Part shown: in pieces, positions 11,914 to 55,885 of the stretch
How the letters are laid out: each line of letters starts with the position of its first letter
Position numbering within the stretch: position 1 is the stretch's first letter
Assembly (NCBI RefSeq): GCF_016617715.1
Contig: NZ_CP067225.1
Span: 2,982,001-3,046,000 of the forward strand
DNA from: Paracoccus sp. MC1862
GTDB taxonomy: Bacteria; Pseudomonadota; Alphaproteobacteria; Rhodobacterales; Rhodobacteraceae
Reading direction: 5' to 3'
Length of the DNA stretch: 64,000 nt
Position numbers and translations under genes: made by a program
Notes under the pieces: model-generated
Database searches by the model: none
What the model was told of the DNA's origin: nothing
What the model saw: only the letters and a program-made list of their open reading frames with translations

Positions 11914-11957
11914 CGCCGTCCCCATGCCCATGCGCGGCGCATAAGGCCGCAGGTGCC

Positions 11958-12533: not shown

Positions 12534-12676
12534 GGGCCGGATTCCTTTTTCGCACGGGGCTAGAGAGCGGGCACGCCCCCGTCAATCACGACGCCGCGGT
12601 CTTGCGCGCGGGCGCTTGCGCGACGGTGCCGGCTGACCTAACTCAGGCGCGCAAGAGAAAAAGGGCGGACCACGGG

Positions 12677-12969
12677 ATGACGACACTGTTTCAGGCGCTG
12701 ATGCTGATCCTGGATGTGCTGTGGTTCATCATGATCGCGCATATCATCATGTCGTGGCTCATCAACTTCGACGTGCTGAACCTGCGCCAGCCGCTGGTGC
12801 GGCAGATCTGGGACGGGCTGTCGCGCCTGCTGGAACCGCTCTATCGCCCGATCCGCAACATCCTGCCGGATCTCGGGGGCCTGGACCTTGCGCCGCTGGT
12901 GGTCTTCATCGGCATCATCATCCTGCAGCGGGCTCTGGTGAACAACGCCGGGTTCTTCCTGGGCTACTG

Positions 12970-12970
<1 letters not shown>
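12677..12970 (+). CDS. YggT-family membrane protein
   Basis: 97 residues with two hydrophobic segments, LILDVLWFIMIAHIIMSWLI and the C-terminal LVVFIGIIILQRAL. The loop LEPLYRPIRNILPDLGGLDL is the YggT signature. YggT proteins are linked to osmotic tolerance and cell division; the mechanism is unsettled. The stop shares one base with the recQ ATG (TGATG), so the two are coupled. Confidence 0.85.
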
Positions 12971-14991
<2,021 letters not shown>

Positions 14992-15006
14992 CGACTTCAG
15001 CGCCGC

Positions 15007-15070
15007 AGGGGGCTGTCCGCCCCCCCCGTCGCCGTTCCGGCGACTCCCCCGGAGGATATTTGTGACCGTC
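15007..15070 (+). repeat. double-hairpin intergenic element, copy B
   Basis: GGGGGCTGTCCGCCCCCC, then GTCGCCgttccGGCGAC, then TCCCCCGGAGGATATTTG. It is the closest relative of copy C (21820-21875, reverse orientation), sharing GGGCTGTCyGCCCC, a second hairpin and the GGATATTT tail followed by GACCG. It sits between the convergent recQ and RND genes and could serve both as a terminator. Confidence 0.65.
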
Positions 15071-15080
15071 CAAAACATGC

Positions 15081-18197: not shown

Positions 18198-19288
18198 GGA
18201 TCGACCCGGCGCCCGACCGCCTGCCCGTCCGCCAGCGAGTTGACCCCGCGCACGACCACCTCGGCCCCGAGGGCAAGTCCCCCGATCACCTCGACGCGGC
18301 CGTCAAGCCGCGCGCCCGTCACGATGACCTGCAGCGTGACGCGGGCGGTCTCGCCCTCGCGGGCCACGACCCAGACGGCATGGCCTTCGGGCCTTTCCAC
18401 CAGCGCCGATGCCGGCACGGACAGCCTTGCTGCGCGCGAGGTGACGCGGCCGGCGCGGATCAGGCTGCCCAGGCGAAAGCCGGTGCCGGGGGGCAGGGCG
18501 ATATGGACGCGGCGGGTGCGGGTCAGGTGGTCGGCCACCGGCGAGATGCGGCTGACCTCTCCCCGGACGCCTTGCTCGATCTCGTGGTCGCGCCAGACCA
18601 GGAACAGGGCGCCGGGCGCCAGCCCGGCAAGCTCGGGCTCGGTCAGGTCGATGCGGGCTTCGATGCGGTCTTCCGAGGACAGCGTCAGGATCGGATCGCC
18701 CGCCGCGACCACTGCCCCCGGCGTCGCCCGCACGGCGCTGACGACGCCCGAAACCGGCGCGCTCATCACCGCAAAGCGTTCCGCGTCGCGGGCGCTTTCC
18801 ACCCGCGCGCGCGCCTGTTCAAGCGCCGAGCGCGCGGCCGACAGCGCCTGCTCGGCCCGTTCAAGCTGGGCGGTCGAGGTCACGTCGCGGTCCAGCAGCG
18901 CCTGCGCCCGCGCGGCGGTGTTGTCGGCGGTCGTCAGGTTCACCTCGGCCGCCGCCAGCGCGGCCTCGGCGGCAAGGGTGGCGCCGGCAAGATCCTCGGG
19001 GTCGAGCCGGGCCAGCACGTCCCCCTGGTTCACCCGGTCGCCGATGTCCACGCGCCGTTCGATCATCCGGCCCAGGGTCTGGAAGGCCATCTGCACCTCG
19101 GTCGCGGCGGTGACCACCCCCGGAATGCTGCGGCCGACGGGACGGCTGTCGCCGTTGGTGACGATTTCGGTGACGACCGGGCGGGGCAGGGGCGGCGTCC
19201 CGGCCCGCGCCGGGCCGAAGTGCAGGGTGAAGGCCCCCGCGGGGGCCGCCGCCAACAGGCCGAGCGCCAGAAAAAGGGCCAGACGCAT
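18194..19288 (-). CDS. RND periplasmic adaptor (membrane fusion protein) 2
   Basis: 364-residue HlyD/AcrA-like adaptor linking the pump to an outer-membrane channel. It has a signal sequence (MRLALFLALGLLAAAPAGAF). The lipoyl half motif is ERRVDIGDRVNQGDVLARLD. A coiled-coil hairpin rich in Ala/Arg/Glu follows (about residues 95-165). The second lipoyl half is VSGVVSAVRATPGAVVAAGD, then the beta-barrel. ATG 19288 has AAGG at -10 and is favoured over an in-frame TTG six bases upstream. Its stop overlaps the permease start as ATGA. Confidence 0.87.
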   Translation of the reverse strand: MRLALFLALGLLAAAPAGAFTLHFGPARAGTPPLPRPVVTEIVTNGDSRPVGRSIPGVVTAATEVQMAFQTLGRMIERRVDIGDRVNQGDVLARLDPEDLAGATLAAEAALAAAEVNLTTADNTAARAQALLDRDVTSTAQLERAEQALSAARSALEQARARVESARDAERFAVMSAPVSGVVSAVRATPGAVVAAGDPILTLSSEDRIEARIDLTEPELAGLAPGALFLVWRDHEIEQGVRGEVSRISPVADHLTRTRRVHIALPPGTGFRLGSLIRAGRVTSRAARLSVPASALVERPEGHAVWVVAREGETARVTLQVIVTGARLDGRVEVIGGLALGAEVVVRGVNSLADGQAVGRRVDP

Positions 19289-19290
19289 CC

Positions 19291-20355
19291 TCAACCTTTC
19301 TCTTCCGCCGTTGTCACCCGGCGGCCCGGATACATGAGCTGCGAGCCTTCGCCCACGACCAGATCCCCTGGCGAAAGGCCCGATCTCAGCACCACCCGGC
19401 CGGTGTCGAACCGTTCGATCCCCACGGGGGCGAGGGCCACGGTGCCATCCTCGGCCACGCGCCAGACGGCCGGGTCGGCGCCTGTCGAGGTCAGGGCCGT
19501 CCAGGGCACCTCGATCCCGGTCCCGGCGGGCAGGTGGACGATGCCCAGCACCGCCGCGCCCAGCAGCGTGGCGTCAAAGGGGCCCTCGATCTCGGCCCGC
19601 ACCGCCACCGACCCGCTGGCCGGATTGACCAGGGGCGCGATCTCGGTCACGCGGCCCTGCAATTCGATACCCCGCCTGTCGATGATGCTCAGCGAGACAT
19701 CGGCGCCCATCGCCATGTCCAGTTGCGGCGCGTCGGGCACCTGGAAGACGGCCTCGAGGCTGGTCAGCGCCGCCACCGTCAGGACCGGCTGGGCGGCGCC
19801 CACGACCTGCCCCGGCTCGGCCATGCGTGCGGTCACCACGGCGGCCTGAGGCGCGCGGATCATTGCGTCGAAGACCGCGCGGCGGGACTGGTTGACCATG
19901 ATGCGAGCGCTTTCCAACTGCCCCTGTGCCGCCGACAGCGCCTGTTCGGCGGCTTCAGCGGCGGCACGGGTGCCGATGCCCCGACGCAGCAGCTCGGCCG
20001 CGCGGGCCGCGGCGTGGCCTGCCTGCTGCTCGGCGGCCTCGGCAGCGGCGCGGGCGGCCAGGGCCTGAACCAGAGTCTGCCGCTGCTGCACGCCCTCGGT
20101 GCGGGCCAGCACATGGCCGCCCATCACCCGGTCGCCCGCCTGCACATGGATGTCGGTGATCCGGCCGGCCGCCGGAAAGGACAGGTCAATGCTGTGCTGC
20201 GCGGTGATCGAGCCGGTCAGCCGAAGGTCGATCGTCATCGGGCGCTCGCCGACCCGGACGATCTCGACTGCGATGGGGGCGTCGGGCGACTGTGCGGGTG
20301 CCGCCGCCGCCATGGCCATGATCGCGCAGAAGGTCAGAAGCGAACGGCCGGTCAA
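19291..20355 (-). CDS. RND periplasmic adaptor (membrane fusion protein) 1
   Basis: 354-residue second adaptor, first gene of the pump unit. It has a signal peptide (LLTFCAIMAMAAAAPAQS), a lipoyl half (ITDIHVQAGDRVMGGHVLAR), an Ala-rich coiled coil and a beta-barrel ending before a basic tail. The only in-frame start covering the signal peptide is a TTG at 20355 with GGAG 7 bp upstream. Two different adaptors for one permease may form heteromeric or alternative pump assemblies, as in some triclosan- or TriABC-like systems; that parallel is inference. Confidence 0.82.
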   Translation of the reverse strand: MTGRSLLTFCAIMAMAAAAPAQSPDAPIAVEIVRVGERPMTIDLRLTGSITAQHSIDLSFPAAGRITDIHVQAGDRVMGGHVLARTEGVQQRQTLVQALAARAAAEAAEQQAGHAAARAAELLRRGIGTRAAAEAAEQALSAAQGQLESARIMVNQSRRAVFDAMIRAPQAAVVTARMAEPGQVVGAAQPVLTVAALTSLEAVFQVPDAPQLDMAMGADVSLSIIDRRGIELQGRVTEIAPLVNPASGSVAVRAEIEGPFDATLLGAAVLGIVHLPAGTGIEVPWTALTSTGADPAVWRVAEDGTVALAPVGIERFDTGRVVLRSGLSPGDLVVGEGSQLMYPGRRVTTAEEKG

Positions 20356-29097: not shown

Positions 29098-29171
29098 GCG
29101 GGTGTAGCTCAATGGTAGAGCAGCAGCCTTCCAAGCTGAATACGTGGGTTCGATTCCCATCACCCGCTCCA
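29098..29171 (+). tRNA. tRNA-Gly (anticodon UCC)
   Basis: Complete cloverleaf of 74 nt. The acceptor GCGGGTG pairs with CACCCGC. The D arm is GCTC...GAGC, the anticodon loop CTTCCAA carries TCC, the T arm includes GGTTCGATTCC, and the 3' TCCA end is encoded. It reads GGA/GGG glycine codons. GC content drops sharply right after its 3' end, so it marks the left edge of the accessory stretch. Confidence 0.96.
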
Positions 29172-42422: not shown

Positions 42423-42680
42423 ATCGGTGTCCCGGCAGATCAGCGGCGCAGGCGCTTGTTGGCATTTCCGGCCGAGCCTTTACGCCAGGGCGACGGTGCC
42501 TCGCAGAACCATGCCAAGCATGCCGACCTGCTGAAGACCATCCGGAAGATCATCAGCCTGTCCGTGTTCGGCGTGCTTTCATGGCTCTATCTGGACGATA
42601 ACCCGACCCGCCAACATGGTGCGGGTTTCTCCCTGATCTGCTCGGGAGCATGGATTGTCCTTCACGGCCGGTACTCGATC
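42423..42680 (+). pseudogene. DUF486/DMT-family transporter fragment
   Basis: Within a longer open frame, LLKTIRKIISLSVFGVLSW, LYLDDNP and QHGAGFSLICSGAWIVLHG match the last two membrane segments of DUF486 (DMT-type) small transporters. The upstream part is present only as a short match (GVPADQ) and is scrambled. The first two spans are absent. It lies directly in front of the Bcr/CflA remnant. Confidence 0.5.
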
Positions 42681-42690
42681 TCCGCCCAGG

Positions 42691-43660
42691 ATGGCGACGC
42701 TGATGGCATGGGCAGGGATCGCCGCTCTTTCCATGAACGTGTTCCTGCCGTCGCGGCCGGCGATGGCGCGGTATTTCGGCGTTGAATACGGACTGATGCA
42801 GTTGTGGGTCTCGGCCTGTCTCGGTGCCTCGGCGGTGGTGCAGTTGCTCGTCGGGCCAATCAGTGATCGCTGGGGACGCCGCCCGGTGATGCTGGGCGCC
42901 TTGGCGATCTTCCTGGCTGCGACCGCGGGGACGCTGCTGGCGCCGACCGCGGGTTGGCTCCTGGCCATGCGAATGATCCAGGCGGTGGTGACCACCGGGC
43001 CGGTGCTGTCACGCGCCGTCGTGCGCGACATGGTGTCCGGCCCTGCGGTCGCAAGCCGGATCGGCTGTGTCACCATGGGCATGGCGGTCGTCCCGATGCT
43101 GCCCCCCGTATTGGGCGGCGCGCTGGATCAATTTTGGGGCTGGAAGGCCAGCTTCACCGCGACGCTCGCCTTGCGGGCCTTCTTCGCTTATCTGGACGGC
43201 GCACCGTTCGTGGGCGAGACAGTGTTCCGGCTCACCCCTGCCGAGGTGGGCTACTGGTTTGCCGCGCCTCGGTCGGCTATCTGCTGGGCAACTTCGCTTC
43301 AGGCCGCTGGTCGATCCACCTCGGCATGGACCGGATGATCCTGTGGGGCGCAGGGGTGACGGTGGCCGCAGTGTCGCTGACCGCCGATCTGGCACAGTTG
43401 CACCACCCGCTGATGTTCTTCGGGGCAGGAGCGTTCATGGGGCTGGGGAATGGCATGGTCCTGCCGAACGCGAATGCCGGCATGATGAGCGTGCGCCCCT
43501 AGTTCGCAGGCACCGCTAGCGGGCTGGAGGGCGCAATGGCGGTCGCGGGCGGGGCGGCGCTTGCCGGCTATTTCCTTGTGTCGGGTGCGGGGGTGACGCC
43601 GCTGCTGGTTTTCATGCTGCTGTCCGCACTCGGGTCCTGCCTGGCCTGCCCTGCTGGGGT
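42691..43660 (+). pseudogene. Bcr/CflA-type MFS drug exporter remnant
   Basis: From ATG 42691 (MATLMAWAGIAALSMNVFLP) the first six spans are readable, including the loop GPISDRWGRRPVMLGALAIF. About 40 residues appear deleted after SFTATLAL, joining directly to FFAYLDGAPFVGETVF. One base is missing near 43267, after FAAP, and the frame resumes as VGYLLGNFASGRWSIHLGMD. An in-frame TAG at 43500-43502 replaces a likely CAG between MSVRP and FAGTASGL. The 3' end fades at about 43660 near an IS3 remnant. Clearly dead. Confidence 0.78.
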
Positions 43661-43689
43661 GGTCCCTTTCCGATCTTGGTGCATGACGG

Positions 43690-44961
43690 GTGCTGGCGCC
43701 ATGCTCCGGGTGGCGAAGGCGGTCCCTGCGGGACCTCGGGAGCGGGGGGCCGCTCGCCCGGGGAGGAATGCGGGCGCTTTGTGGTGCAAGGGCGGCGCCC
43801 CGCCGCGAGGACGATCTTCGCCGCGGCGAGGCTGCAGAGGATGTCGCCGGTGAGCCGCTCGTCGCGCAGCTTGGCGGTGAAGCTCTCGCAGCGGCCCGTC
43901 GTCGGGCACACAGTCCCCCGGACCGTTTCCTGATCCTCCTCCCTCCCCGGGGGATCCAGGCTCGACAGAGGCCGTTCCGGCGCCGGCCGCGGCGATCCGG
44001 TCGCGCAGCGCGGTGGCCACGAACGCCGGGCCGTTGTCCGGCCGGACAGGGCCGGGCACGCCGCGGAGGAGGAACCGGTCCGGCAGCACGTCGATGACAG
44101 CCGGCGCGTTCAGCTTGCGGCTGAGCCGGAGCGCCAGGGATTCCCGGGCGAACCCGCCGATCAGGTCGCGCATGCGGAACTTCCCGCCGTCACGGGTCCG
44201 GGCCGCGACGAAGTCGCAAGACCGGACGTGGTCTGGACGCGCTGGCCGCAGACGGAGGCACGATCCGTCGTCGCGCCGGAGCCGCGCCTTCCCCGGTTGC
44301 GGCGCAGGCGCCGTCAGCCCCTCCCGCCGCCGGCGACGCAGGCCTCGCCCCCTCGCCGCGCGTCACGTTCCCCGTCCGGCCGGCATGCCCGAGCAGGGCC
44401 GGGATCCGCCGCTGGCCGCAGCGCCCCTGCCGGGCGGCAAGCGCAACGATGCCGGCAGTCAGCGCCTCTTCATCGGCCCGTCCGCGCGGCACCTTCCGGC
44501 TCGGGTCGAGCGAGGCGGGCCGGGCACGCGGCAGGCGAGGCGCGCCGAGACACGGAACTCCTGCCGGACCTGCCCGATGCAGGCACGGCGACGCGCGGGG
44601 CCTGGAAGTTGCCCGAGGCGTTCGGCCACAGGCCTCACCACGCAGGATCAGCTTCTCCGGCGTCAGGCCGGAGACGGCCTTCCGCAGCCGCCCGTTCTCC
44701 TTCTCCCGCTCCTTCAGGCGTTTGACCCGATCGCTCTGCAGCCCGCCGAACTCCTTGCGCCACCGGGAGCAGGTCAACTGCGCCACGCCGATCGAGCGCA
44801 CCGCCCCGGCCACCGACCGGCCCCGCGACACCAACACGCCGACCTGCCGGAGCCTGGCCACGATCTCCTCGGGTTCGTGCTTCTTCCGGGACATTCCGCC
44901 GGCCTCCATCCGGCTCGAAAGCCTGCGTCAGGGAGGACCACTTTCAGGGGGCGGACCACAT
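43690..44961 (-). mobile_element. IS3-family (IS407-like) remnant
   Basis: On the minus strand OrfA begins MSRKKHEPEEIVARLRQVGV (44894) and continues AVRSIGVAQLTCSRWRKEFGG, the IS3 OrfA helix-turn-helix and leucine-zipper type. OrfB is broken into short frames: LALRLSRKLNAPAVIDVLPD, FLLRGVPGPVRPDNGPAFVA (DDE second Asp) and ESFTAKLRDERLTGDI, plus a PHSSPG end. Many frameshifts make it inactive. The right end near 44961 reads TGTGGTCCGCCCCCTGAAAG inward, fitting an IS3 terminal repeat. Confidence 0.78.
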
Positions 44962-45475
44962 GGAGAACTGAAGAGGAAGCCTTGCGAATGAGACGTGGAG
45001 GACGTGTCGTGCAGCCTGCTCATGGGCAGGTGAGTGAACGCCATTCTCGGGATCCTCCACTGGCACCACTGCGCAAGCTCAACTTGCCGGTAACCCTCCC
45101 GATAACTGAGTCCCCGATTTCGCCAGCAAGGATGCGGGGATATTCCAGCAGGCTCTGGGAATGCACTCTGTTGTCCGCTGAGACCACAACGCCGGTCTGC
45201 AGGTTGGGTGCGCCTCCGTGGATCGCAGCCATGCAGAGGTTGCAGCGGATGCGCCCGGGCGCGAGGTCATGCAATGCGTCGCGGTGCCGTCGGGGTCGCA
45301 ACGCTCTCATGGATCAAGGGCCTTGGCCGCTGGCTTCTGCGGCGGCTGGACGGCGCTTTCAGAAAAGGTAGCCTTCAGGCCGCCCGAATACGGGCGTAAA
45401 GTAGTAAGACACTGAATTTAAATGATTAAATTAGTACGCGCTGCGAGCACCACCTGCTATCAGGCTCCGGGGCGG
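44962..45475. other. spacer with an unrecognised 96-codon frame
   Basis: About 510 bp. The minus strand has an open frame at 45020-45310 (APGRIRCNLCMAAIHGGAPN... ending SREWRSLTCP) that I cannot assign. A plus-strand frame overlaps it. Near 45390-45430 the sequence becomes AT-rich (TAAAGTAGTAAGACACTGAA and TTTAAATGATTAAATTAG), unlike its surroundings, and could be a promoter remnant or a junction. Confidence 0.4.
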
Positions 45476-45958
45476 ACGAGGCGAATGACACCGAACTGGC
45501 CCAGGCGATCGTTCGCTTCTGGATCGAAGGTGCCGCAGCCGGCTACATCCTCATTGCCCTTAGTTCTTGATCTGCCGCCGCCAGGCGTTGCGGCGCTTGT
45601 CGCCGCGTGGATGGGGATATTCTTTCTGGTCTCGACCTGGCTCTTTGCAGCCATCCGCCGCGATCCCGGTGTCCGGCACCGGCGGCGGGCGCTGGCGATG
45701 CTCAACGACTACGGCAGCACGGCCTTTGTCCTGTCGATGGGGACAGGATCCTGCTGCCGATCTTCATGGTGCTGATCTGGATCACGCTCGGATACGGGAT
45801 GCGCTACGGCCCCCGGTATCTGCTGGCGAGCACCTTCAGTGCCTTATTTGTCATCGCCACCATCACGATGTTCTCCGATTTCTGGCGCGCCCAGCCCTTC
45901 ATGGTGGCGACCTTCATCCTGGCGGCGGCCTGGTTCCGGCTTACGCGCATGTCCTGCT
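45476..45958 (+). pseudogene. N-terminal membrane fragment of an RpfC-like sensor kinase
   Basis: Three frames give a consistent but broken membrane region: ELAQAIVRFWIEGAAAGYIL, then WMGIFFLVSTWLFAAIRRDP and RRRALAMLNDYGSTAFVLSM, then LPIFMVLIWITLGYGMRYGP and RYLLASTFSALFVI. The TLGYGMRYG and MLNDYGSTAF stretches resemble the input domain of RpfC-type hybrid kinases. No HisKA or HATPase domain follows; the sequence changes at about 45940 into the ABC transporter. Probably a recombination junction. Confidence 0.5.
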
Positions 45959-47546
45959 GATCCTCGCCATTTTCCTCGCGCTTGAGGTGGCGGTGATTGC
46001 CCTGCCGATCGGCTTTGCCCTGATCCTCGACGAGGTGGCGGCGGCGGCAAATGTCGACCTGCTCACCATCATCGCGCTGGCGCTCCGCCTGCTTCTCGCG
46101 CCGCCGGTCGCGCAGGGATTTGCAAGCGCCTGGGCAACTATGATTCTCGGCACCAGCCTGACGCTGCAGTGGAAGGTCAGCCTCTTCGACCAGATGGTGC
46201 GCCTGCCGCTTGCCTTCTTCACCAAGCGGCACATCGGTGACGTCGTCTCGCGCTTCGGCTCGACCGACGCGATGCAGCGCACCCTGACGACGCGGGCGAT
46301 CCAGTCGATCATCGACGGCATCATGTCGGTCACGCTGGTGGTGATCATGTGGCTGTATGGCGGCTGGCTCATCTGGACCGCGATTGCCAGCCTCGGCGCC
46401 TATATCGCGCTACGCCTGACCTCGTACCGCGCCTATCGGGCGATGTCCGAGGAGGCGATCCTGCACGCGGCGCAGGAAACCACCCATTTTATGGAATCGG
46501 TGCGCGGCATCGGCAGCGTCAAGGCGATGAACATTGAGGGGCGCCGCCGGGGCACCTGGATCAACCACCTGATCGACCGGGTGAATGCCGAGCTGCGGGT
46601 CCAGAAGATGGATGCCGCTTTCGTGGCCGCAAGCTCGGGCCTCTTCGGCTTTGATCGCATCCTAGTCATGACGCTTTGCGCCCGGGCGATTCTGACCGGT
46701 GACCTCACGGTGGGCACCCTGGTCGCCTTCCTCGCCTACAAGGACCAGTTCGCCACGCGGGTGAACGCGCTTGTCGATACGGCGCTGCAGTTCCTGATGA
46801 TGTCGCTGCACGGCGAACGCATCGCCGACATCGCGCTGGCCGAAACCGAGGAACCCGATCCGCCGACAGCACTTCCTGCGCGGATCGGCTGGAAGGCGGC
46901 TTCGCTGGAGCTGCATGACGTCTCCTTCCGCTACGCGCCGGGCGACCCCAAGGTGCTGTCGGACTTCTCCCTTCATGTCCGCGCCGGAGAATGCTTGGGC
47001 ATCACTGGCCCGTCGGGGGTGGGCAAATCCACCCTTCTGGCGATTATCGCGGGCCTCGCGCGTCCCACGCAGGGGCAGATGCTGATCGACGCCATCCCGC
47101 TCGGGCGGAGGGGGCTTGCGGCTTACCGCGACCGGATCGGCTGCGTGCTGCAGGATGACCGGCTGTTTGCCGGTTCCATCGCCGACAACATCGCCGGCTT
47201 CGATCCCGAGGCAGGCCGGGATGCGGTTATCGCTGCAGCGCGGATGGCCGCGATCCATGACGAGATCGAGGCCTTCCCCATGGGCTACGAGACCCTGGTG
47301 GGCGACATGGGAGGCGCGCTTTCCGGCGGTCAGCGCCAGCGGCTGTTTCTTGCCAGGGCACTTTACCCGCGCCCAGGCATCCTGATCCTCGACGAGGAAA
47401 ACGAGCGCGCGATCAACGCCGCCGTCCGTCGGCTCGACATCACCCGCATCGTCGTGGCGCACCGCCCCTCGACCCTCGCCGCCACCGACCGGGTGGTGAG
47501 CCTGGGCGAGGTCCGGGGCGAGGCGTTCGTGACGGCCGCGGAATAA
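45942..47546 (+). pseudogene. peptide-exporting ABC transporter (CvaB/RaxB type), truncated
   Basis: About 535 codons covering the membrane domain and the ATPase of a bacteriocin-type exporter. LQWKVSLFDQMVRLPLAFFT, KRHIGDVVSRFGSTDAMQRT and AAQETTHFMESVRGIGSVKA are typical of CvaB/RaxB-like permeases. The ATPase has Walker A (GPSGVGKSTLL), signature GALSGGQRQRL, Walker B ILILDE and the H-loop VVAHRPS. The N-terminal C39 leader peptidase is absent. At 47391-47404 LILDEENERAIN lacks about eight residues, which removes the D-loop. The frame is open to the stop, but no proper start exists. Precursor peptides follow. Confidence 0.7.
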
Positions 47547-47584
47547 CGACCAGCCTGGCCACCAACCGGAAGGAGAAAACCGTC

Positions 47585-47752
47585 ATGGACGTCATCAAGC
47601 GCATCGCCCCCGACAGAAAGCAGGGCGAACTGACGCCGCTTCTCGAGGCGCATCTCGACAGCATGTCGGGTGGGGCGAACCCCGGATTGGGCTGCGCCCA
47701 TATCTCGACGGGCTGCAACGAGACCCACGACAGCCGCACCCAGTGCAGGTAA
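47585..47752 (+). CDS. double-glycine-leader precursor peptide A
   Basis: 55-residue peptide with a strong ribosome site (AAGGAG 9 bp before ATG). The leader ends LLEAHLDSMSGG, the double-glycine form cut by C39 peptidases. The 25-residue core begins ANPGLGCAHISTGC and ends NETHDSRTQCR, with three Cys plus Ser/Thr. It resembles a bacteriocin/RiPP precursor substrate of a radical SAM enzyme and a CvaB-like exporter. Leader and core C-terminus match peptide B. The frame is intact, unlike most neighbours. Confidence 0.72.
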   Translation: MDVIKRIAPDRKQGELTPLLEAHLDSMSGGANPGLGCAHISTGCNETHDSRTQCR

Positions 47753-47774
47753 GCCGCCGGCAGGAGAGACGGAC

Positions 47775-47984
47775 ATGACCACGCGTTCCACCTATGGCCG
47801 CCTGATCGGCGGCATCACCGGCTCGGGCGAGCCGGCCGCTCCGCTCACGCAACTCCTCGACGAGCATCTCTCCGAGGTCTCGGGCGGGCGTTGTGGCTGT
47901 AGGCACAGTTCAAGTTCCAGCCACATGTCGACCATCTCGGGAACCAACCACGATTCTCGAACCGACTGCACCGTTCAGCGCTGA
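47775..47984 (+). CDS. double-glycine-leader precursor peptide B
   Basis: 69-residue peptide 22 bp after peptide A, with AGGAG upstream of ATG 47775. The leader contains APLTQLLDEHLSEVSGG. The 31-residue core begins RCGCRHSSSSSHMSTISG and ends TNHDSRTDCTVQR. Against peptide A, conserved elements are L-L-x2-H-L-x3-SGG in the leader and HDSRT-x-C in the core, so the two are paralogues. The Ser run and Cys residues are plausible modification targets. Function unknown; a modified antimicrobial or signal peptide is inferred. Confidence 0.72.
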   Translation: MTTRSTYGRLIGGITGSGEPAAPLTQLLDEHLSEVSGGRCGCRHSSSSSHMSTISGTNHDSRTDCTVQR

Positions 47985-48071
47985 GGCGCCGGGGAGGGTG
48001 TGGTTCATGCCGCGCCCTTTACCCCAGACCGTCGCCTGTTGCGGCAGGCTTGCTTTCCGAAAGAGATCCCG

Positions 48072-49378
48072 ATGACCCAAGTCCGCCGGCAGCGCTCGAT
48101 CGACATCGTCGCCAAGATCACCGAACGCTGCAACCTGGCCTGCACCTATTTCTTCTTCGGGAGGGGACGAAACATGGCTTCGCCACTCGGCCGTGATGAA
48201 GCCCGAGACGATCGACGCGCTTGCCGGGTTCCTGGTTCGGGGCCAGCGAACTGGAACTGGACGACATCTACCTCGGCCTGCACGGCGGCGATCCGCTGCT
48301 GATGAAGAAGCCCGCCTTCGATGCGATGTGCATCCGCCTGCGGGCGGCGACGCCCGAGCGGACCAGGCTTTACTTCGGCGTGCAGACCAACGGCATGCTG
48401 ATCGACGCGGAATGGATCGATCTCTTCGAAAAGCAAAAGGTCGGCATCGGCATCAGCCTTGACGGGCCTGCGGCGGTCAACGACCGCGCCTGGATCGACA
48501 AGAAGGGCAGGGGCAGCCATGCCCGCGTCCTGCAGGGTCTTCGCATCGCGCAGGAGGCCGCCCGGGCAGGCAGGATACCGCAGCCCGGCTGCGTTTGCGT
48601 CATCGACCCCGATCAGGACCCGGCAGAGATCTATGATCACCTGATCGGGGAACTCGGCTTCCTGCTGCCGCGTGAGGGGCATGACACCCGGATGCAGATC
48701 GACGCCGGGAAATGGCGCGGCTTCATGCGCCGGCTCGTGCCGCATTGGACCGATCCGGCGACATCCACCGTGCCGATGCGGATCCTGTCCGAGCCGCTGA
48801 AGGGCATGATCTCGGACGGGGGCGCGGCATGGCGCGACATATGGATCGCGAACCGCCACAACGTCATCACCGTGACAAGCGACGGCGAGTTGGGGCCGGA
48901 CGACAACCTGAAGGGCCAGGACCCGCGCTTCCAGGAAACCGGCATGAGTGTCTTCGGCACCACCCTCGGCGACTTCGTCGAAAGCCCGCTCTGGCAGGGG
49001 ATCGTCACGGGCATCGACCAGCTTCCCCAGCGCGGCTGCGACTGGCGGCGCGTCTGCGGCGGCGGGGACGTCTTCAACCGCTACAGCCGCGCGCATGGCT
49101 TCAGCCGCGAGAGCGTCTTCTGCGACGCCCTGGACGAGATGCACCTTGAACTTGCGCGCTACGCCGTGGGCCACGGCATCCTCGCCGAGGAGATCGCGGA
49201 GCGCCTTTCAAGGCCGCGTAGCTGCCGTGCGAGCAACCTGGCAGAAACGCGCCATGACGCCCGAGATGGGACGAATGAACGAGAGATTGCCCTGAACCAA
49301 GCGGATGCCTTCGTCGCAGGTCACGGTGCCGGGGCCGAGATCGCCTTGCTCTCGCGACCTGCAGAAGCGCTGACCTGA
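48072..49378 (+). pseudogene. radical SAM/SPASM-type peptide maturase, interrupted
   Basis: ATG 48072 follows GAAAGAGATCCCG. The N-terminus reads IVAKITERCNLACTYFFFG: the radical SAM CxxxCxxC motif has lost its third Cys. The frame then shifts near 48165 (MKPETIDALAGFLVRG) and near 48240 (ASELELDDIYLGLHGGDPLL). The rest is open: LYFGVQTNGMLIDAEWIDLF, IGISLDGPAAVNDRAW, and a C-terminal Cys-rich region CDWRRVCGGGDVFNRYSRAH...VFCDALDEMH like FxsB/SPASM maturases. The tail after about 49205 is not family-like. As written it cannot bind a full 4Fe-4S cluster. Confidence 0.72.
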
Positions 49379-49574
49379 ACCCAGCCAGCCATATCGCAGC
49401 CACGCTGCGCACGATCTCGCAGCCCCCGAAGCTGTCTCGAAGACCTGATGCCCTGCCAGTTCGGGCAGCCGAACCTTCGAGCCGGGAAATGCGCCTGCTG
49501 TGATCCTGTTCCGCGGTCCCATGTTCCGGCACCCTGCCGGAGCCGTCCTGTTCCCCGGCACGTCCCGGCTTTCA

Positions 49575-49611
49575 CACCCTGCCGGAAGGTTCAGATCCCC
49601 TCGGCAGGGTG
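49575..49611 (-). terminator. terminator-like repeat after the dehydrogenase gene
   Basis: ACCCTGCCG (49576-49584) and CGGCAGGGT (49602-49610) form a 9-bp stem 13 bp beyond the stop of the minus-strand dehydrogenase gene. It has no long T-tract. Confidence 0.5.
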
Positions 49612-49622
49612 CAGGGGCAGGG

Positions 49623-52547
49623 TCACCCCCGGATCAGCGCCCGGTCCAGCACCTGCGCGACATGGATGGCCTGCCTGTCCGCGCCGTCCTGGATCTGGTG
49701 GCGGCAACTGGTGCCGTCGGCCACGATCAGGTCGTCCGGCCCGGCCTTGCGGACGGCGGGCAGAAGCGACAGCTCGGCCATCTTCATCGACACCTCGTGG
49801 TTCTCGGTTGCATAGCCGAAGGCCCCCGACATCCCGCAGCAGGAGCTTTCGATTACCCTCAGTTCCAGCCCCGGCACGGCGCGCAGGACAGTTTCGACCG
49901 GGCCCATCACGTCGAAGGCCTTCTGGTGGCAATGCCCGTGCAGATGGGCGACGCGCCCCCCTTGGTCGGCCAGCGGCAGGCTGATGCGGCCCGCCTTGAG
50001 GTCGGCGGCCAGCACCTCCTCGAACAAGAGCGCCTGCCCGTCGAGGAAGCCGGTCTCGGACGCCGGCAGCAGCGCCGTCATCTCGTCGCGGAAGGTCAGG
50101 ATGCAGGACGGCTCCAGCCCCACGACCCGCGCGCCCCGTTCCACGAAGGGCCTGAGCGCCTCGGCCGAGCGGCGGACCTCGGCCCGCGCCTCGTCGGTCT
50201 GCCCCGAGGCGAGCCATGTCCGCCCGCAGCACATGGGCCTTGTGCTGCCCGCGGGCTGGACCCGGTGCAGGCGGTAGCCCGCGGCGATCAGCACCTGCTC
50301 GGCGGCCTCGAGGTTACCACGCTCGAAATAGCGGTTGAAGGTGTCGCCGAAGAGGACGAGATCCAGCCCGTCGCCCACGACATCCTCGGGCCGGGCCACG
50401 GGACGCGCCTCCTTCCACGGTTTGCCCCATTTTGGCAGGCTGCGTTTCGCGGAAACGCCCAGCATCCGTTCCGAAAGCTTTGCCACGAAAGGAAGCCGGT
50501 CGCGCAGGTTCAGGGCGGGCGCGAGGCGGTTCGCACGATGGGCAAGGCGCGGCAGGTTGGCGATCAGCCGTTCGCGCAGGGGAAGCCCGTGTTTCTTGTG
50601 GTAATGGTGCAGGAACTCGATCTTCATCCGCGCCATGTCCACGCCCGTGGGGCAGTCGCGCTTGCAGCCCTTGCACGAAACGCAAAGATCCAGCGTTTCC
50701 TTCATCTCGGCCGAGGTGAAGGCGTCCGGCCCCAACTGCCCCGAGATCGCCAGCCGCAGCGAGTTTGCCCGGCCGCGCGTCAGGTGCTGTTCCTCGCGCG
50801 TCGCGCGGTAGGACGGGCACATGGTCCCGCCCGCCAGCTTCCGGCAGGTGCCGTTGTTGTTGCACATCTCGACCGCGCCACCGAAGCCGCCCCATTCCGA
50901 CCAGTCGAGCGCCGTCTTCTGCGGCTGCGTCGCCGCATAGCCGGGCTGAAAACGCATCAGGTTGCGGTCGTCCATCTTCAGCGGACGAACGATCTTACCC
51001 GGATTCAGCCGGTTTTCCGGGTCGAAGCTGTCCTTCACCTGCTCGAAGGCGCGGGTCAGCTTGGCGCCGAACAGCGGTTCCACGAATTCCGACCGCGAGA
51101 TGCCGTCCCCATGCTCGCCCGAGAACGATCCCTTGTAGCGGCGCACCAGATCGGCCGTCTCCTCGGCGATGGCGCGCATCTTCCGCGCGCTGTCTTCGGT
51201 CTTCATGTTCAGGATCGGACGGACATGCAGGCAGCCGACAGAGGCATGGGCATACCATGTCCCGACAGTGCCGTGCCTGCTGAAGACCTCGGTCACGGCG
51301 TCGGTGTAATCGGCCAGGTGTTCCAGCGGGACGGCGCAATCCTCGATGAAGGAGACTGGTTTCCCGTCGCCCTTCATCGACATCATGATGTTCAGGCAGG
51401 CCTCGCGCACGTCCCAGACGGGTTTCTGGCGGGCCGGCTCGATCACCTCGACCACCGCGTCGGGGAAGCCATGGTCGGCCATGCACTGGTCAAGCCGTTT
51501 CAGGTCGCGTTTCAGCCCGTCGAGGTCGTCGCCCGCGAATTCGACCAGCAGCAGGCAGTTGGGCTTGCCGCGGGTGATGTCGCTCAGCGTGCGGACGAAC
51601 AGGGGGATGTCGGCGCCCAGCACCAGCACGTTGTTGTCCACCAGTTCGACCGCGACCGGGTCGAGCGCGACAATGTGCTGCGTCGTCTCCATCGCGCCGC
51701 GGAAGGTGGGGAAATGGCAGACGCCCATGACGCGATGCTTCGGCAGCGCCGACAGCTTCAGCGTGACGCCGGTGGTCAGCGCCAGCGTGCCTTCGGAACC
51801 CACCAGCAGATGCGAGTAGTTCGGGTTTTCCGGCAGTAGCTCGTCAAGGTTGTAGCCGCCGACGCGGCGCTGGACCTTGGGAAAGATCGTCTCGATATCC
51901 GCGCGATGCTCGCGGGCGAGTGCCGTCAGCCGCTCCATGATCCCGCGGGCGCGGAGGGGCAGGGCGGTCAGTGGCGCGTCCCCGAGGGAAAAGTCCTCGC
52001 CGTCCGGCAGCATCCCGTCAATGGCCAGCACGTTGTCCACCATCTTGCCGAAGCGCAGCGAGCGTGCCCCGGACGAGTTGTTCCCGGCCATCCCCCCGAT
52101 GGTGCAGCGCGAGGCGGTCGAGGGCTCGACCGGGAAGAACAGCCCGTCCTTGCGGAGATGGTCGTTCAGCGTGGTCAGCACGGTGCCGGGGCGGACATGG
52201 ACCGTGCGGGCCTGCGGGTCATAGGCGGTGATGCCGCTGAAATGGCGCGACATGTCGAGGATCAGCCCGTCCCCGATCGGCTGGCCGTTCTGCGAGGTGC
52301 CGCCGCCCCGCGCGATGACCGGCACGCCATGCTCGCCCGCGACCTGCAGGGCGGCGGCGATGTCGGTCGTGTGCCGGGGGAAGGCCACGGCGCGGGGCAT
52401 GATCTGGTAGATCGAGGCATCCGTCGCATAGCGCCCGCGGGTGAAGGCGTCGAAGCGGACCTCGCCTTCCAGCGCCTTGGCCAGGGCTGTCTGAAACGCT
52501 TGGCTGCGGGCGGCCGGAGGGGTGCGGGGCTTGGTGGATGCGTTCAT
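49623..52547 (-). CDS. FAD/4Fe-4S D-2-hydroxyacid dehydrogenase (YdiJ/D2HGDH type)
   Basis: 974-residue fusion of a GlcD-like FAD domain and a GlcF-like iron-sulfur domain. FAD-binding: VIARGGGTSQNGQPIGDGLI, GTVLTTLNDHL and GGMAGNNSSGARSLRFG. The iron-sulfur part has CVSCKGCKRDCPTGVD (CxxCxxCxxxCP), another Cys set around NGTCRKLAGGTMCPSYRA, and CCG-type motifs (SSCCGMSGAFGY). It oxidises a D-2-hydroxy acid such as 2-hydroxyglutarate, lactate or glycolate and passes electrons to the quinone pool or another carrier. Context with GlcG, an aminotransferase and a carboxylate permease favours glycolate or a related acid. An operator-like repeat lies upstream. Confidence 0.85.
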   Translation of the reverse strand: MNASTKPRTPPAARSQAFQTALAKALEGEVRFDAFTRGRYATDASIYQIMPRAVAFPRHTTDIAAALQVAGEHGVPVIARGGGTSQNGQPIGDGLILDMSRHFSGITAYDPQARTVHVRPGTVLTTLNDHLRKDGLFFPVEPSTASRCTIGGMAGNNSSGARSLRFGKMVDNVLAIDGMLPDGEDFSLGDAPLTALPLRARGIMERLTALAREHRADIETIFPKVQRRVGGYNLDELLPENPNYSHLLVGSEGTLALTTGVTLKLSALPKHRVMGVCHFPTFRGAMETTQHIVALDPVAVELVDNNVLVLGADIPLFVRTLSDITRGKPNCLLLVEFAGDDLDGLKRDLKRLDQCMADHGFPDAVVEVIEPARQKPVWDVREACLNIMMSMKGDGKPVSFIEDCAVPLEHLADYTDAVTEVFSRHGTVGTWYAHASVGCLHVRPILNMKTEDSARKMRAIAEETADLVRRYKGSFSGEHGDGISRSEFVEPLFGAKLTRAFEQVKDSFDPENRLNPGKIVRPLKMDDRNLMRFQPGYAATQPQKTALDWSEWGGFGGAVEMCNNNGTCRKLAGGTMCPSYRATREEQHLTRGRANSLRLAISGQLGPDAFTSAEMKETLDLCVSCKGCKRDCPTGVDMARMKIEFLHHYHKKHGLPLRERLIANLPRLAHRANRLAPALNLRDRLPFVAKLSERMLGVSAKRSLPKWGKPWKEARPVARPEDVVGDGLDLVLFGDTFNRYFERGNLEAAEQVLIAAGYRLHRVQPAGSTRPMCCGRTWLASGQTDEARAEVRRSAEALRPFVERGARVVGLEPSCILTFRDEMTALLPASETGFLDGQALLFEEVLAADLKAGRISLPLADQGGRVAHLHGHCHQKAFDVMGPVETVLRAVPGLELRVIESSCCGMSGAFGYATENHEVSMKMAELSLLPAVRKAGPDDLIVADGTSCRHQIQDGADRQAIHVAQVLDRALIRG

Positions 52548-52599
52548 CTGCCGGTGCCTTCCTGCTGGTGGGGTGCGGGAAAGTTAGACGACGCATGGA

Positions 52600-52640
52600 T
52601 TGAATACAATATTTGGATTCAGGCGCGAGATCGTATTCAG
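52600..52640. promoter_or_regulatory. GntR-type operator candidate in front of the dehydrogenase
   Basis: TGAATACAAT (52601-52610) and, inverted, ATCGTATTCA (52630-52639) face each other across about 19 bp between the dehydrogenase and the first GntR gene. The same decamer type occurs at 53399, 55886 and 57414. Confidence 0.55.
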
Positions 52641-53326
52641 TTCGTAGCGAGGTTCCGTAAGATGGCGTCCTTCGTGCTGCGCAGATGGTCGAACAGCAGG
52701 TCCGCCAGTTCGCCTCCCGCCCGGCGGCGCAGGGCGTCGAGGATCAGTTCATGTTCCCGCACGGCCTCGCGCCAGCGTTCGCCCTGCTCGTCAAGGTTCG
52801 CAGTGAAACGGACGCGGCGCAGCCGGCCCAGCAGGATGCGGGCGGCCGAGGACAGGGCGTCGTTGCCAGCGGCGGCAAGGATCGATTCGTGAATCTTCTG
52901 GTTGCAGGCGAAATAGCCCTGCCGGTCGCCGCGTAGGTAGAAGGCATACATCTCGCGATGGACCTCTTCGATGGCGTCGAACCAGGCGGGTGTGATCCGC
53001 TCGCAGGCGAGTCGCCCGGCCAGGGCCTCAAGCCCGCCCATGAGGTCGAACAACTCGCCGATCTCGTCGGGCGTCAGCACCTTCACGCGGGCGCCGCGGT
53101 TGGGCAGAAGCTCGATCAGCCCTTCCGAGGCCAGCACCTTCAGCGCCTCGCGCAGCGGCGTGCGCGAGACGCCGAAGCGTTCGCACAGCTCACGTTCCGA
53201 GATGCGGGCGCCGTCGGGAAGATCGCCGTGCACGACGTGATCGCGCAGTCGGGACAGGATCTCGCCATGCAGGGTGGTGCCGATGCGTTGGGCCGCAGGC
53301 CCGTCGCGTGTCGTCAGGTCGTTCAT
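52637..53326 (-). CDS. GntR-family (FCD) transcriptional regulator 1
   Basis: 229-residue regulator. The N-terminal winged helix-turn-helix has ISERELCERFGVSRTPLREA and LKVLASEGLIELLPNRGARV. An all-helical FCD effector domain follows, with the metal/acid-binding pattern around NQKIHESILAAAGN and REHELILDAL. FCD regulators bind small carboxylates. ATG 53326 follows GGGAGGGGGCGG. It lies next to a second regulator of the same length and may control the surrounding catabolic genes through the TGAATnCRAT sites. Confidence 0.88.
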   Translation of the reverse strand: MNDLTTRDGPAAQRIGTTLHGEILSRLRDHVVHGDLPDGARISERELCERFGVSRTPLREALKVLASEGLIELLPNRGARVKVLTPDEIGELFDLMGGLEALAGRLACERITPAWFDAIEEVHREMYAFYLRGDRQGYFACNQKIHESILAAAGNDALSSAARILLGRLRRVRFTANLDEQGERWREAVREHELILDALRRRAGGELADLLFDHLRSTKDAILRNLATN

Positions 53327-53398
53327 CCGCCCCCTCCCTGTCATCCGGGCAGCAAGCATAGCGGGTGGGTGGCAATCCGCCTAGATCGCGGCGCGGAC

Positions 53399-53408
53399 TG
53401 AATGCAAT
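53399..53408. promoter_or_regulatory. TGAATGCAAT motif between the two regulator genes
   Basis: TGAATGCAAT lies at the junction of regulator 2's stop and the region upstream of regulator 1. It matches the copy at 55886 exactly. Confidence 0.45.
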
Positions 53409-54097
53409 CAAGCCGTGCCCGCCGCCTGGCCCGCAAGCGACTGGCTGACAGCGCGCAACTTGTTTTCCAGATGCTGCCGCAGGGTCGTGGCCAGCTTCTC
53501 ACCGTCCTGGGCCGACAGGTGTTCGATAATCCACTCATGCTCCTCGACCGCCTGCGCCCAGCGGGCGGGGGTGGTGTTGGCGACATAGCGCGCCCGCTGC
53601 ACCCGCGCCGACAGTGCCCGGTAATGGGCGGTCAGGGTCGGGTTGCGGGCGGCATTCAGGATGCCCTCGTGGATCTTCTGGTTCGCGGCGTAATAGCCGC
53701 CAAGATCGCCTGCCCGGTAACGGTCCAGCATCGCGGCGTGATGGGCGCGGATTTCTCCAAGCTCGGCGGGGGTGATATTCTGGCAGGCGAGTTCGCCCGC
53801 CAAGGCTTCAAGCGCGCCCATGACAGGGAACAACTCGTCCAGATCTTCCTGCGTGATCCGGCTGACGCGGGCGCCGCGGTTGGGTTCCAGCACCACCAGC
53901 CCTTCCGAGGCCAGCACCTTCAGCGCCTCGCGCAGCGGCGTGCGGGACACGTCATAGGCCTCGCACAACTCCATCTCGGGCACCTTCGCCCCCGGCGGCA
54001 ACTCGCCGTGGATGATGAGGTCGCGCAGGCGCTGCGTCAGTTCCTCGTGCAGCGTCCGGCGCCGCGGCGGCTTCATGCTGTCGGGGACGTAGTTCAT
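53408..54097 (-). CDS. GntR-family (FCD) transcriptional regulator 2
   Basis: 229 residues, the same length as its neighbour, and clearly its paralogue: VSRTPLREALKVLASEGL is identical in both, as is NRGARV. The winged helix has KVPEMELCEAYDVSRTPLRE. The FCD domain has NQKIHEGILNAARNP and EEHEWIIEHL. ATG 54097 (MNYVPDS) is used; ATG 54076 (MKPPRRR) is a shorter option. It is the upstream gene of the pair and follows the glcG gene on the same strand. Confidence 0.85.
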   Translation of the reverse strand: MNYVPDSMKPPRRRTLHEELTQRLRDLIIHGELPPGAKVPEMELCEAYDVSRTPLREALKVLASEGLVVLEPNRGARVSRITQEDLDELFPVMGALEALAGELACQNITPAELGEIRAHHAAMLDRYRAGDLGGYYAANQKIHEGILNAARNPTLTAHYRALSARVQRARYVANTTPARWAQAVEEHEWIIEHLSAQDGEKLATTLRQHLENKLRAVSQSLAGQAAGTA

Positions 54098-54176
54098 CAA
54101 GCGGTCGCCTGTGGCTGGTCCGGGCGGGGTCTTCGGGGGCGATGGTATCACCGCCCCCGCACCCCGCGCCAGACCC

Positions 54177-54602
54177 TCAGCCCGGATCGGCCTGCAGGCC
54201 CAGGGCCTCGATGGCGGCGACGGCGCAGACCTCGTCATTGTCGGATGTGTCGCCGGTGATGCCGACCGCGCCGATGATCTCGCCGTCCTTGCGGACCAGC
54301 ACGCCGCCCGGCACGGGAACGAGGCTGCCGCCCGCGATCGTGTTCATCGCCTGGATGAAATAGGGCTGTTCCTGCGCGCGGTTGTAGATCGCGCGAGAGC
54401 CCATCCCCATGCCGATGGCCCCCCGCGCCTTGCCCTGCGCGATTTCCGCCCGCAGCAGGCTGGTCCCGTCCTGCCGCAGCAGCACCTTGAGATGCCCGGC
54501 GGCGTCCAGCACCGCCACGGTCAGCGGCTTCAGCTTCATCTCTCCGGCCCGGTCGAGGCAGAGATCGGCCAGCTTGCGGGCCATGTCGAGTGTCAGGGTC
54601 AT
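54177..54602 (-). CDS. GlcG/HbpS-family heme-binding-like protein
   Basis: 141-residue protein of the GlcG/HbpS/PduO-C fold: LKPLTVAVLDAAGHLKVLLR, DGTSLLRAEIAQGKARGAIG, VPVPGGVLVRKDGEIIGAVG and SDNDEVCAVAAIEAL. In enteric bacteria glcG sits in the glycolate oxidase locus; HbpS-type members bind heme. Its biochemical role is unsettled. The AGGAGGACCGC ribosome site before ATG 54602 is near-ideal. Confidence 0.85.
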   Translation of the reverse strand: MTLTLDMARKLADLCLDRAGEMKLKPLTVAVLDAAGHLKVLLRQDGTSLLRAEIAQGKARGAIGMGMGSRAIYNRAQEQPYFIQAMNTIAGGSLVPVPGGVLVRKDGEIIGAVGITGDTSDNDEVCAVAAIEALGLQADPG

Positions 54603-54661
54603 GCGGTCCTCCTGTCGGTTCCCCGTGGTGATGCGCCCCGGCGATGCGGGGCGCAAGCCGC

Positions 54662-55849
54662 TCAGGCGTCGATGCCGGGGGCGGGGGTGGCTTCCAGATG
54701 CGCCATGGCGGCCGCGACGCCGCCCCTGTCATGCGGCACATCGGCCTTGGACAGCGCCATTTCCACGCCGCTGAGCGCACCCACCAGCGTCAGGTCGTTG
54801 ATGTCGCCCAGATGGCCGATGCGGAACACCTTGTCCGCGACCTTGGACAGCCCGCTGCCCAGCGAGATGTTGTAATGCCGCAGGGCTGCGGCCCGGAAAG
54901 CGTCGGCGCTGTGCCCTTCCGGCATCATCACCGTGGTCAGGACGCCGCTTTCATGCCCCTGCCGGTTGCACAGCACCTCCAGCCCCCAGGCGCGGACGGC
55001 GGCTCGGGTCGCGGCGGCATGGCGCTGGTGGCGGGCAAAGACGGTGTCCAGTCCTTCCTCGTGCAGCATGGCGATGGCCTCGACGAGGCCGTAGAGCATG
55101 TTGGTCGCGGGGGTATAGGGAAAATAGCCCTTGCCGTTGATCTCGACCATCTCCTGCCAGTCCCAGTAGGACCGGGGCATCCCGTTCTGCTTCGCGGCCT
55201 CCAGCGCCTTGCCGCTGACGGCGTTGAAGCTGATCCCCGGCGGCAGCATCAGGCCCTTCTGCGAGCCGGATACGGCGACATCGACGCCCCATTCGTCAAA
55301 GCGGAAGTCGATCGAGGCAAGACCCGAGATCGTATCCACCATCAAGAGCGCCGGGTGGCCTGCCGCGTCGATCGCCCGCCGCACATCCGCGATGGGCGAG
55401 ACCGAGCCGGTCGAGGTCTCGTTGTGGACGACGCAGACGGCCTTGATCTCGTGGTCCGTGTCGGCGCGCAGGTGCTGCTCGATCTGGTCGGGATCGGCGC
55501 CTGCGCGCCAGTCGCCGCCGATGAACTCGGCCCGGACGCCCAGCTTCTCGGCCATCTTCTGCCACAGGGTGGCGAAATGGCCGGTTTCGTACATCAGGAC
55601 GCGGTCGCCTTCCTTCAGGACGTTGGCCAGCGCCGCTTCCCATGCGCCGGTGCCCGAGGAGGGGTAGATGATGACGTCCGCTTCCGTCTTGAAGATCGTC
55701 TTCATCCCCGCCAGCGCCTTCAGGCCCAGTTCACCGAACTCGGGGCCGCGGTGGTCGATGACCTGCGCCGACATGGCCCGCAGGACGCGGTCCGGCACCG
55801 GGCTGGGACCGGGGATCTGAAGGAAGTGACGACCGAACACATGGGTCAT
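54662..55849 (-). CDS. class V aminotransferase (serine/alanine-glyoxylate type)
   Basis: 395-residue fold-type I PLP enzyme. GRHFLQIPGPSPVPDRVLRA is the family start, VIIYPSSGTGAWEAALANVL binds PLP phosphate, VHNETSTGSVSPIADVRRAI and LLMVDTISGLASIDFRFDEW carry the ring-binding Asp, and AVSGSQKGLMLPPG holds the Schiff-base Lys. The group moves amino groups to glyoxylate or similar oxo acids and includes AGT, SGAT and the aspartate:glyoxylate enzyme BhcA. BhcB, BhcC and BhcD are not present here, so a full beta-hydroxyaspartate cycle is not shown. Likely takes the oxo acid made by the neighbouring dehydrogenase. Confidence 0.82.
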   Translation of the reverse strand: MTHVFGRHFLQIPGPSPVPDRVLRAMSAQVIDHRGPEFGELGLKALAGMKTIFKTEADVIIYPSSGTGAWEAALANVLKEGDRVLMYETGHFATLWQKMAEKLGVRAEFIGGDWRAGADPDQIEQHLRADTDHEIKAVCVVHNETSTGSVSPIADVRRAIDAAGHPALLMVDTISGLASIDFRFDEWGVDVAVSGSQKGLMLPPGISFNAVSGKALEAAKQNGMPRSYWDWQEMVEINGKGYFPYTPATNMLYGLVEAIAMLHEEGLDTVFARHQRHAAATRAAVRAWGLEVLCNRQGHESGVLTTVMMPEGHSADAFRAAALRHYNISLGSGLSKVADKVFRIGHLGDINDLTLVGALSGVEMALSKADVPHDRGGVAAAMAHLEATPAPGIDA

Positions 55850-55885
55850 GGACCTGTCTCCCATAAGAAGCGTAATTTTGAATAA

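Follow-up and report, generated by a model that had tools for sequence, protein, structure and literature searches.

A decayed Paracoccus copy of a seven-gene peptide cassette with two His-Xaa-Ser precursors and a probable cyclophane-type radical SAM enzyme

The 64,000-nucleotide stretch of Paracoccus sp. MC1862 DNA analyzed here (the window; position 1 is its first letter) carries at 45956-49378, on the forward strand, the remnant of an ATP-binding cassette (ABC) exporter, two small precursor genes (P1 and P2) and a fragmented gene for a radical S-adenosylmethionine (SAM) enzyme with a SPASM domain, in that order and all on one strand. What would such a cluster have made when it was whole, and can the copy in the window still make it? 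Comparison with related sequences leads us to regard it as probable that the cluster in the window is a defunct seven-gene cassette, and that in its intact relatives a single radical SAM/SPASM enzyme of the triceptide (three-residue cyclophane) type modifies two peptides, with His-Ser rings as the expected products.

Intact cassettes in sister genomes

We searched 125 Paracoccus genomes for the enzyme at a threshold of 1e-20. Matches were obtained in 11 of these genomes and were close in three, namely the window's own genome and two designated G088 and G120. The G120 cassette encodes, in order, a hybrid kinase, a LuxR regulator (on the opposite strand), an HlyD adaptor, a C39-ABC exporter of 730 amino acids, P1, P2 and the radical SAM enzyme. 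It occupies the same chromosomal place as the window cluster, adjoining the same FAD-linked oxidase gene, in a genome that is 86% complete. The 563-amino acid kinase contains HisKA, HATPase_c and Response_reg domains (the last scoring under its cut-off), and the exporter has a C39 domain (PF03412, 2e-33) fused to PF00664 and PF00005, which makes it a peptidase-containing ABC transporter. In G088 all seven genes recur in surroundings unlike those of G120; the names of the kinase, regulator and adaptor there come from likeness to the G120 genes, without a model search, and the G088 exporter matches TIGR03796 (peptidase/permease/ATPase) over the full length at 491 bits, below the cut-off of 853. 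In both genomes P1, P2 and the enzyme directly follow one another, and relatives of P1 and P2 also exist as separate database proteins; a chance arrangement in the window is therefore excluded. Between the window and G120 the DNA is 92.5% identical over the exporter (with one gap) and 91.7% identical over the enzyme.

A sequence-only reading of the window had described an exporter, two double-glycine precursors and a radical SAM/SPASM gene lying consecutively on one strand, had taken them for a decaying cluster for ribosomally synthesized and post-translationally modified peptides, and had thought an active relative likely elsewhere. Open frames and domain models bear out the gene content and order, and the assignment to a modified-peptide cluster in decay is supported by the intact cassettes and by the lesions relative to G120. 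Both G120 and G088 supply the intact homologous locus, with both precursors between a C39 exporter and a radical SAM gene with a full CxxxCxxC motif, and the small frames do co-occur with genes of these two kinds. The start proposed for the cluster, 45942, was about right; the wreck also takes in the kinase remnant immediately upstream. To that reading the sister genomes add the regulator and adaptor half of the cassette, which is missing from the window.

His-Xaa-Ser motifs in the precursor cores

The leader peptides of P1 and P2 both follow the pattern L..LL..HL..[VM]SGG. In the window, the P1 core contains two His-Xaa-Ser (HxS) motifs and three Cys residues, and the P2 core contains three HxS motifs. 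An alignment of eight precursors used as query retrieved 15 proteins, of which eight were new and seven (the window's two, P0037, P0038, P0039, P0042 and P0045) were in the query or nearly so. With P1 as the sole query we recovered P1 itself and one relative. A match in genome G036 (E 0.005, within a long frame) was dropped as chance. The precursor set comprises 16 sequences, including the two of the window: six P1 (relatives in G120 and G088, the latter being P0042, and P0037, P0043 and P0046), eight P2 (relatives P0038, P0039, P0041, P0044, P0047, P0048 and P0050) and two of a Verrucomicrobia type.

Over the 16 precursors, 41 of 44 core His residues have a Ser two positions on. This holds for every core His in the 14 Paracoccus-type precursors (37/37), for four of seven in the two Verrucomicrobia-type cores, and for 22 of 24 in the eight proteins outside the query alignment. 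Between His and Ser, four of the five Paracoccus motif positions admit different residues (I/D/S; D/N/T; A/I/M; D/S/V). Phe, Trp and Tyr are absent from all 16 cores, leaving His as the sole aromatic residue, and both Verrucomicrobia-type cores are free of Cys; these two absences and the unbroken motif in the Paracoccus-type cores are the new observations of this study. Three Cys residues with fixed spacing are present in all six P1 cores, and a CGC sequence lies among the first five residues of all eight P2 cores.

Motif-bearing precursors adjoin the enzyme gene in loci L005, L098 (the G120 stretch) and L020 (Verrucomicrobia). We counted motifs near the enzyme in 78 of 82 loci, L041, L046, L053 and L084 being left out as having no recognized enzyme frame; "near" was defined as small frames lying no more than 700 bases upstream from the enzyme, and P2 of G088 escaped the count because it is covered by a longer frame. 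Frames with at least two HxS motifs made up 4 of 215 near the enzyme versus 13 of 3226 elsewhere, and all four belong to a clade of 11 enzymes described below. The leader pattern occurred in 7 of 215 near frames and 1 of 3226 far frames, although the pattern was written post hoc and hence provides no independent test. Shuffle values for seven cores were between 0.002 and 0.024, except for L020 (0.05).

Precursors near other enzymes of the tree carry other motifs, for example W-rich ones in Xenorhabdus and FDLS/FDLT repeats in Nitrospirillum. Double-glycine precursors with five FDLS/FDLT units adjoin enzyme relatives at L021:6679-6915 and L102:2827-3024, in Nitrospirillum and another genome of the window's class. 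A second cyclophane-type cluster was seen in other Paracoccus genomes (L010, L011, L012 and L045), with an enzyme 33-36% identical to P0005, a relative of the window enzyme, and a double-glycine precursor whose core contains FGR or FGRA/S, FLR, HSK or HNK, and TTTTG; the enzymes of G108 and of P. laeviglucosivorans (L045) are identical.

The enzyme and the chemistry it may perform

For two intact relatives of the window enzyme, P0002 and P0005, the best model was XyeB (TIGR04496; 278 and 281 bits, cut-off 450), with FxsB (TIGR04269; 233 and 228 bits, cut-off 370) and YhhB (NF041707; 231 and 240 bits, cut-off 445) also matched; all three models are named for cyclophane-forming enzymes. The same models score best, below their NCBIfam subfamily cut-offs, for P0006, P0008, P0010 and the L020 enzyme. 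The nearest solved structure to P0002 is ChlB, both by sequence (1.5e-31) and by fold (Foldseek 5e-25, TM 0.74/0.87), the fold query being an AlphaFold2 model with a mean pLDDT of 82.9. A reference title in PMC12636437 calls ChlB a multiple cyclophane synthase; in the fold alignment ChlB is 24% identical to P0002. In a tree of 44 chosen sequences (41 from a set of 117, plus L102-L104), the window enzyme, P0002-P0010 and the enzyme of L020 form a clade of 11 with support of 100/99 (bootstrap 100). The clade recurs in the 117-sequence tree, from which L016, L017, L041, L046, L053 and L084 were left out for want of a recognized enzyme frame, with a Shimodaira-Hasegawa-like approximate likelihood ratio (SH-aLRT) support of 99. 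The model scores and the likeness to ChlB relate this SPASM radical SAM enzyme to the known three-residue cyclophane-forming enzymes (3-CyFEs), and from them we infer that it is of this kind, in a clade of its own. The sequence-only reading had found no family for the cores; a class, HxS peptides with a cyclophane-type enzyme, can now be proposed.

Wider sampling yielded no further close member. The family sample gave one enzyme in 394 at 1e-50, the window's own, and the class sample four in 385 at 1e-60; apart from that of the window, these are 34-35% identical and fall outside the clade of 11. A scan of viral contigs found no relative, and all 27 records from a plasmid search were below 60% identity.

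According to PMC11002830, enzymes that form three-residue cyclophanes link an aromatic side chain with the Cβ of the residue two positions on, and the partners on record include His-Ala for HaaB, His-Arg for YhhB and Phe-Ser for MscB. HaaB and YhhB accept His, and MscB accepts Ser; a His-Ser crosslink is the natural reading of HxS here. The cassettes resemble the known triceptide systems (XyeB/XncB, FxsB, GrrM/OscB, YhhB, HaaB and MscB) in having a radical SAM/SPASM enzyme of about 400 amino acids adjoining small precursors with aromatic-X-X cores; double-glycine leaders, too, occur beside the Xenorhabdus and other enzyme relatives that we examined. They differ in that the motif of the Paracoccus type is HxS with His as the only core aromatic residue, in having two precursors of different core type, in the kinase/LuxR pair present in both intact Paracoccus cassettes, and in the separate enzyme clade.

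The enzyme of an intact cassette would recognize the P1 and P2 leaders and, by way of a 5'-deoxyadenosyl radical, link every core His with the Ser at position +2. The bond would be expected to run from imidazole C2 to Ser Cβ with a loss of 2 Da per motif, so that P1 would gain two rings and P2 three. Once the exporter's C39 domain had removed the leader behind Gly-Gly, the peptides would leave the cell through the ABC exporter and its HlyD adaptor. The adjoining hybrid kinase and LuxR regulator probably control production, and we would guess that the peptide pair serves competition or signaling under that control.

We consider it unlikely that the enzyme instead makes Cys thioethers of the sactipeptide or ranthipeptide type on the fixed Cys residues of P1, with the HxS motifs incidental. 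The conserved Cys residues of the P1 and P2 cores and the SPASM-type Cys set of the enzyme would suit such chemistry, but the ranthipeptide (PapB) model reaches only 80-83 bits for P0002 and P0005, far below their XyeB scores, and the structure of a sactipeptide enzyme (5wgg/5why) ranks under ChlB. In addition, one of the two cores that lack Cys altogether lies beside the clade enzyme of L020.

Haft and Basu reportedly described a His-Xaa-Ser system consisting of HxsA, HxsB, HxsC and HxsD, in which HxsC is a partner of HxsB. PMC9062424 identifies HxsB as the radical SAM enzyme of that system. The possibility that our peptides are products of its unknown chemistry, and their enzyme a stray HxsB, is decidedly slim: the core motif is the same and both enzymes are radical SAM proteins, but with the HxsB model (TIGR03978, cut-off 370) P0002 reaches 54 bits and P0005 68 bits. 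Each Paracoccus cassette shows one radical SAM gene and no second among its listed frames, the neighbors not having been scanned with an HxsC model; the precursors are short, with two or three motifs. The same source describes a Mucilaginibacter lappiensis cluster in which one HxS precursor accompanies radical SAM enzymes unrelated to HxsB and HxsC; its authors (2022) leave undecided whether the motif is meaningful or coincidental. Set beside the Paracoccus cassettes by description alone, that cluster differs in having a second radical SAM enzyme together with a lantibiotic dehydratase-like gene.

Peptides without modifications are exported by C39 transporters as well, and P1 and P2 might be plain double-glycine peptides, microcin- or signal-like, with the radical SAM enzyme acting elsewhere. 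We think this very improbable, given the fixed order of P1, P2 and enzyme in both intact cassettes and the retention of His and Ser around a free middle residue; P0046, P0048 and P0003, moreover, each lie on a contig of 3652 bp, presumably the same one.

Several points weigh against His-Ser ring formation by the clade enzymes. Three of the seven His residues in the Verrucomicrobia-type cores lie outside an HxS motif, and the three fixed Cys residues of P1 are left without explanation. The first motif of P2 is always HSS, so that the ring might instead close on the first of the two Ser residues, and His-rich motifs could serve metal binding without any crosslinks. Because three of the four near-enzyme HxS frames are the starting Paracoccus cassettes, independent support outside Paracoccus comes from the single locus L020, whose shuffle value is weak when taken alone; the motif also has its background of 13 frames among the 3226 elsewhere. 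None of the clade members scanned reaches an NCBIfam cut-off, and the literature examined contains no assay of any enzyme of the clade.

On balance we still favor HxS crosslinking, and we lean somewhat towards a triceptide family of its own, whose single enzyme would turn His-Xaa-Ser into His(C2)-Ser(Cβ) rings, up to three per peptide, on two companion peptides without other aromatic residues; this family would extend from Paracoccus to Verrucomicrobia and have a dedicated two-component system in Paracoccus. The searched part of the open PubMed Central literature contains no HxS family with this enzyme, while HxS peptides may already be among the precursors listed in Sugiyama 2022 (the 2022 triceptide survey), Nguyen 2020, Morishita 2024 and Ruel 2025. 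If correct, such a family would give a one-enzyme answer to the fate of His-Xaa-Ser motifs. With one enzyme, natural variants, and a fixed His and Ser that leave the residue between them mostly free, so compact a system would open HxS chemistry to a decisive test.

The Verrucomicrobia locus (L020:4327-9402) contains a divergent C39 exporter, an HxS precursor whose leader ends in IAA, not SGG, the radical SAM enzyme, and a separate gene for an α-ketoglutarate (αKG)-HExxH β-hydroxylase (TIGR04267, 60 bits, cut-off 40). With respect to ChlB/ChlBH, the listed frames of the Paracoccus cassettes include no hydroxylase gene, no model search having been made for one.

Decay of the window copy

Features of the cluster and its flanks are collected in Table 1. 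Two blastn blocks define the main lesion: 5650-6338 of L098 corresponds to 45279-45963 of the window, and 10088-20000 to 45956-55864. The DNA lost between them encodes most of the kinase, the LuxR regulator, the HlyD adaptor and the C39 domain. The exporter remnant, whose frame opens at 45567 solely through run-on from the kinase remnant, also shows a short in-frame loss directly after Walker B.

Table 1. Features of the decayed cluster and its flanks, in window coordinates
Feature	Position	Strand	Evidence
IS3-type transposase frame (context, outside the system)	44190..44909	-	PF01527 3e-7; NF033516 39 bits, under cut-off 160
Hybrid sensor histidine kinase gene, 5' remnant, frame-shifted	45440..45955	+	blastn, 83% to L098 5650-6338; small alignment gaps
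Deletion join, ~3.7 kb of G120 gone; matching blocks share 8 bases	45956..45963		blastn
ABC exporter remnant, transmembrane and nucleotide-binding domains without C39 domain	45956..47546	+	PF00664 7e-26, PF00005 3e-29
Precursor P1, 55 amino acids, leader 1-30 ending GG, core 31-55	47585..47752	+	Open frame, relatives
Precursor P2, 69 amino acids, leader 1-38 ending GG, core 39-69	47775..47984	+	Open frame, relatives
Radical SAM gene, N-terminal piece; then frame lost	48072..48160	+	Weak TIGR04496 match, 0.002
Radical SAM/SPASM gene, main open piece, 385 amino acids	48221..49378	+	TIGR04496 192 bits (cut-off 450); 87% to intact P0002
Intact FAD-linked oxidase gene (context; anchors cluster position)	49623..52547	-	PF02913, PF01565; gap-free vs G120 over 2925 bp

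Relative to G120, six gaps interrupt the exporter and radical SAM genes, one in the exporter and five, all short insertions or deletions (indels), in the enzyme, where two shift the frame; there is no gap in P1, P2 or the oxidase gene. The window enzyme lacks two of seven Cys residues that are invariant in 14 relatives, the third of the CxxxCxxC motif and one SPASM Cys. The C39 domain (PF03412) is absent from the exporter frame, and a search of the window's genome found none (0/1), compared with 8 of 14 control genomes that were positive. Given the large deletion and the lack of another C39 domain in the genome, neither this cluster nor a C39 exporter encoded elsewhere in the genome could process the peptides. 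With adaptor, regulator and C39 domain gone and conserved cluster Cys residues missing from the enzyme, the window copy is no working seven-gene cluster; judged from its sequence it is dead, and none of the system is expected to run.

The sequence-only reading had stressed that the precursors are intact while the enzyme genes are broken. This description is correct but carries little weight, as 378 bp of precursor DNA would escape indels with a probability of 0.46 at the rate seen in exporter and enzyme; intact precursors are therefore no sign of use. Ratios of nonsynonymous to synonymous substitution rates (dN/dS) against G120 were 0.24 for exporter plus enzyme, 0.15 for the neighboring gene, 0.28 for P1 and 0.40 for P2, low values that probably reflect shared history preceding a recent loss. 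That the cluster still works in pieces, or that the damage is an assembly artifact, is scarcely credible despite the intact precursors and the low exporter and enzyme dN/dS, since a general sequencing fault would not leave the neighboring 2925-bp gene gap-free next to six gaps and a 3.7-kb loss, and since no C39 domain was found in the genome and two conserved cluster Cys residues are lost as well. The dead copy illustrates the loss of a cluster with a neighbor gene kept intact.

Around the cluster, a 45-base stretch at about 49530, between the dead genes and the oxidase gene, has no counterpart in G120. At 42655-43853, shortly before the transposase frame, frames resemble by eye a Bcr/CflA-like major-facilitator transporter split over several frames. 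The distance from a tRNA-Gly gene (29098-29171) to the cassette is about 16 kb in the window versus about 1 kb in G120. Nothing between 29098 and 45279 matches the fetched G120 stretch, and this region beside tRNA-Gly is likely an insertion spot.

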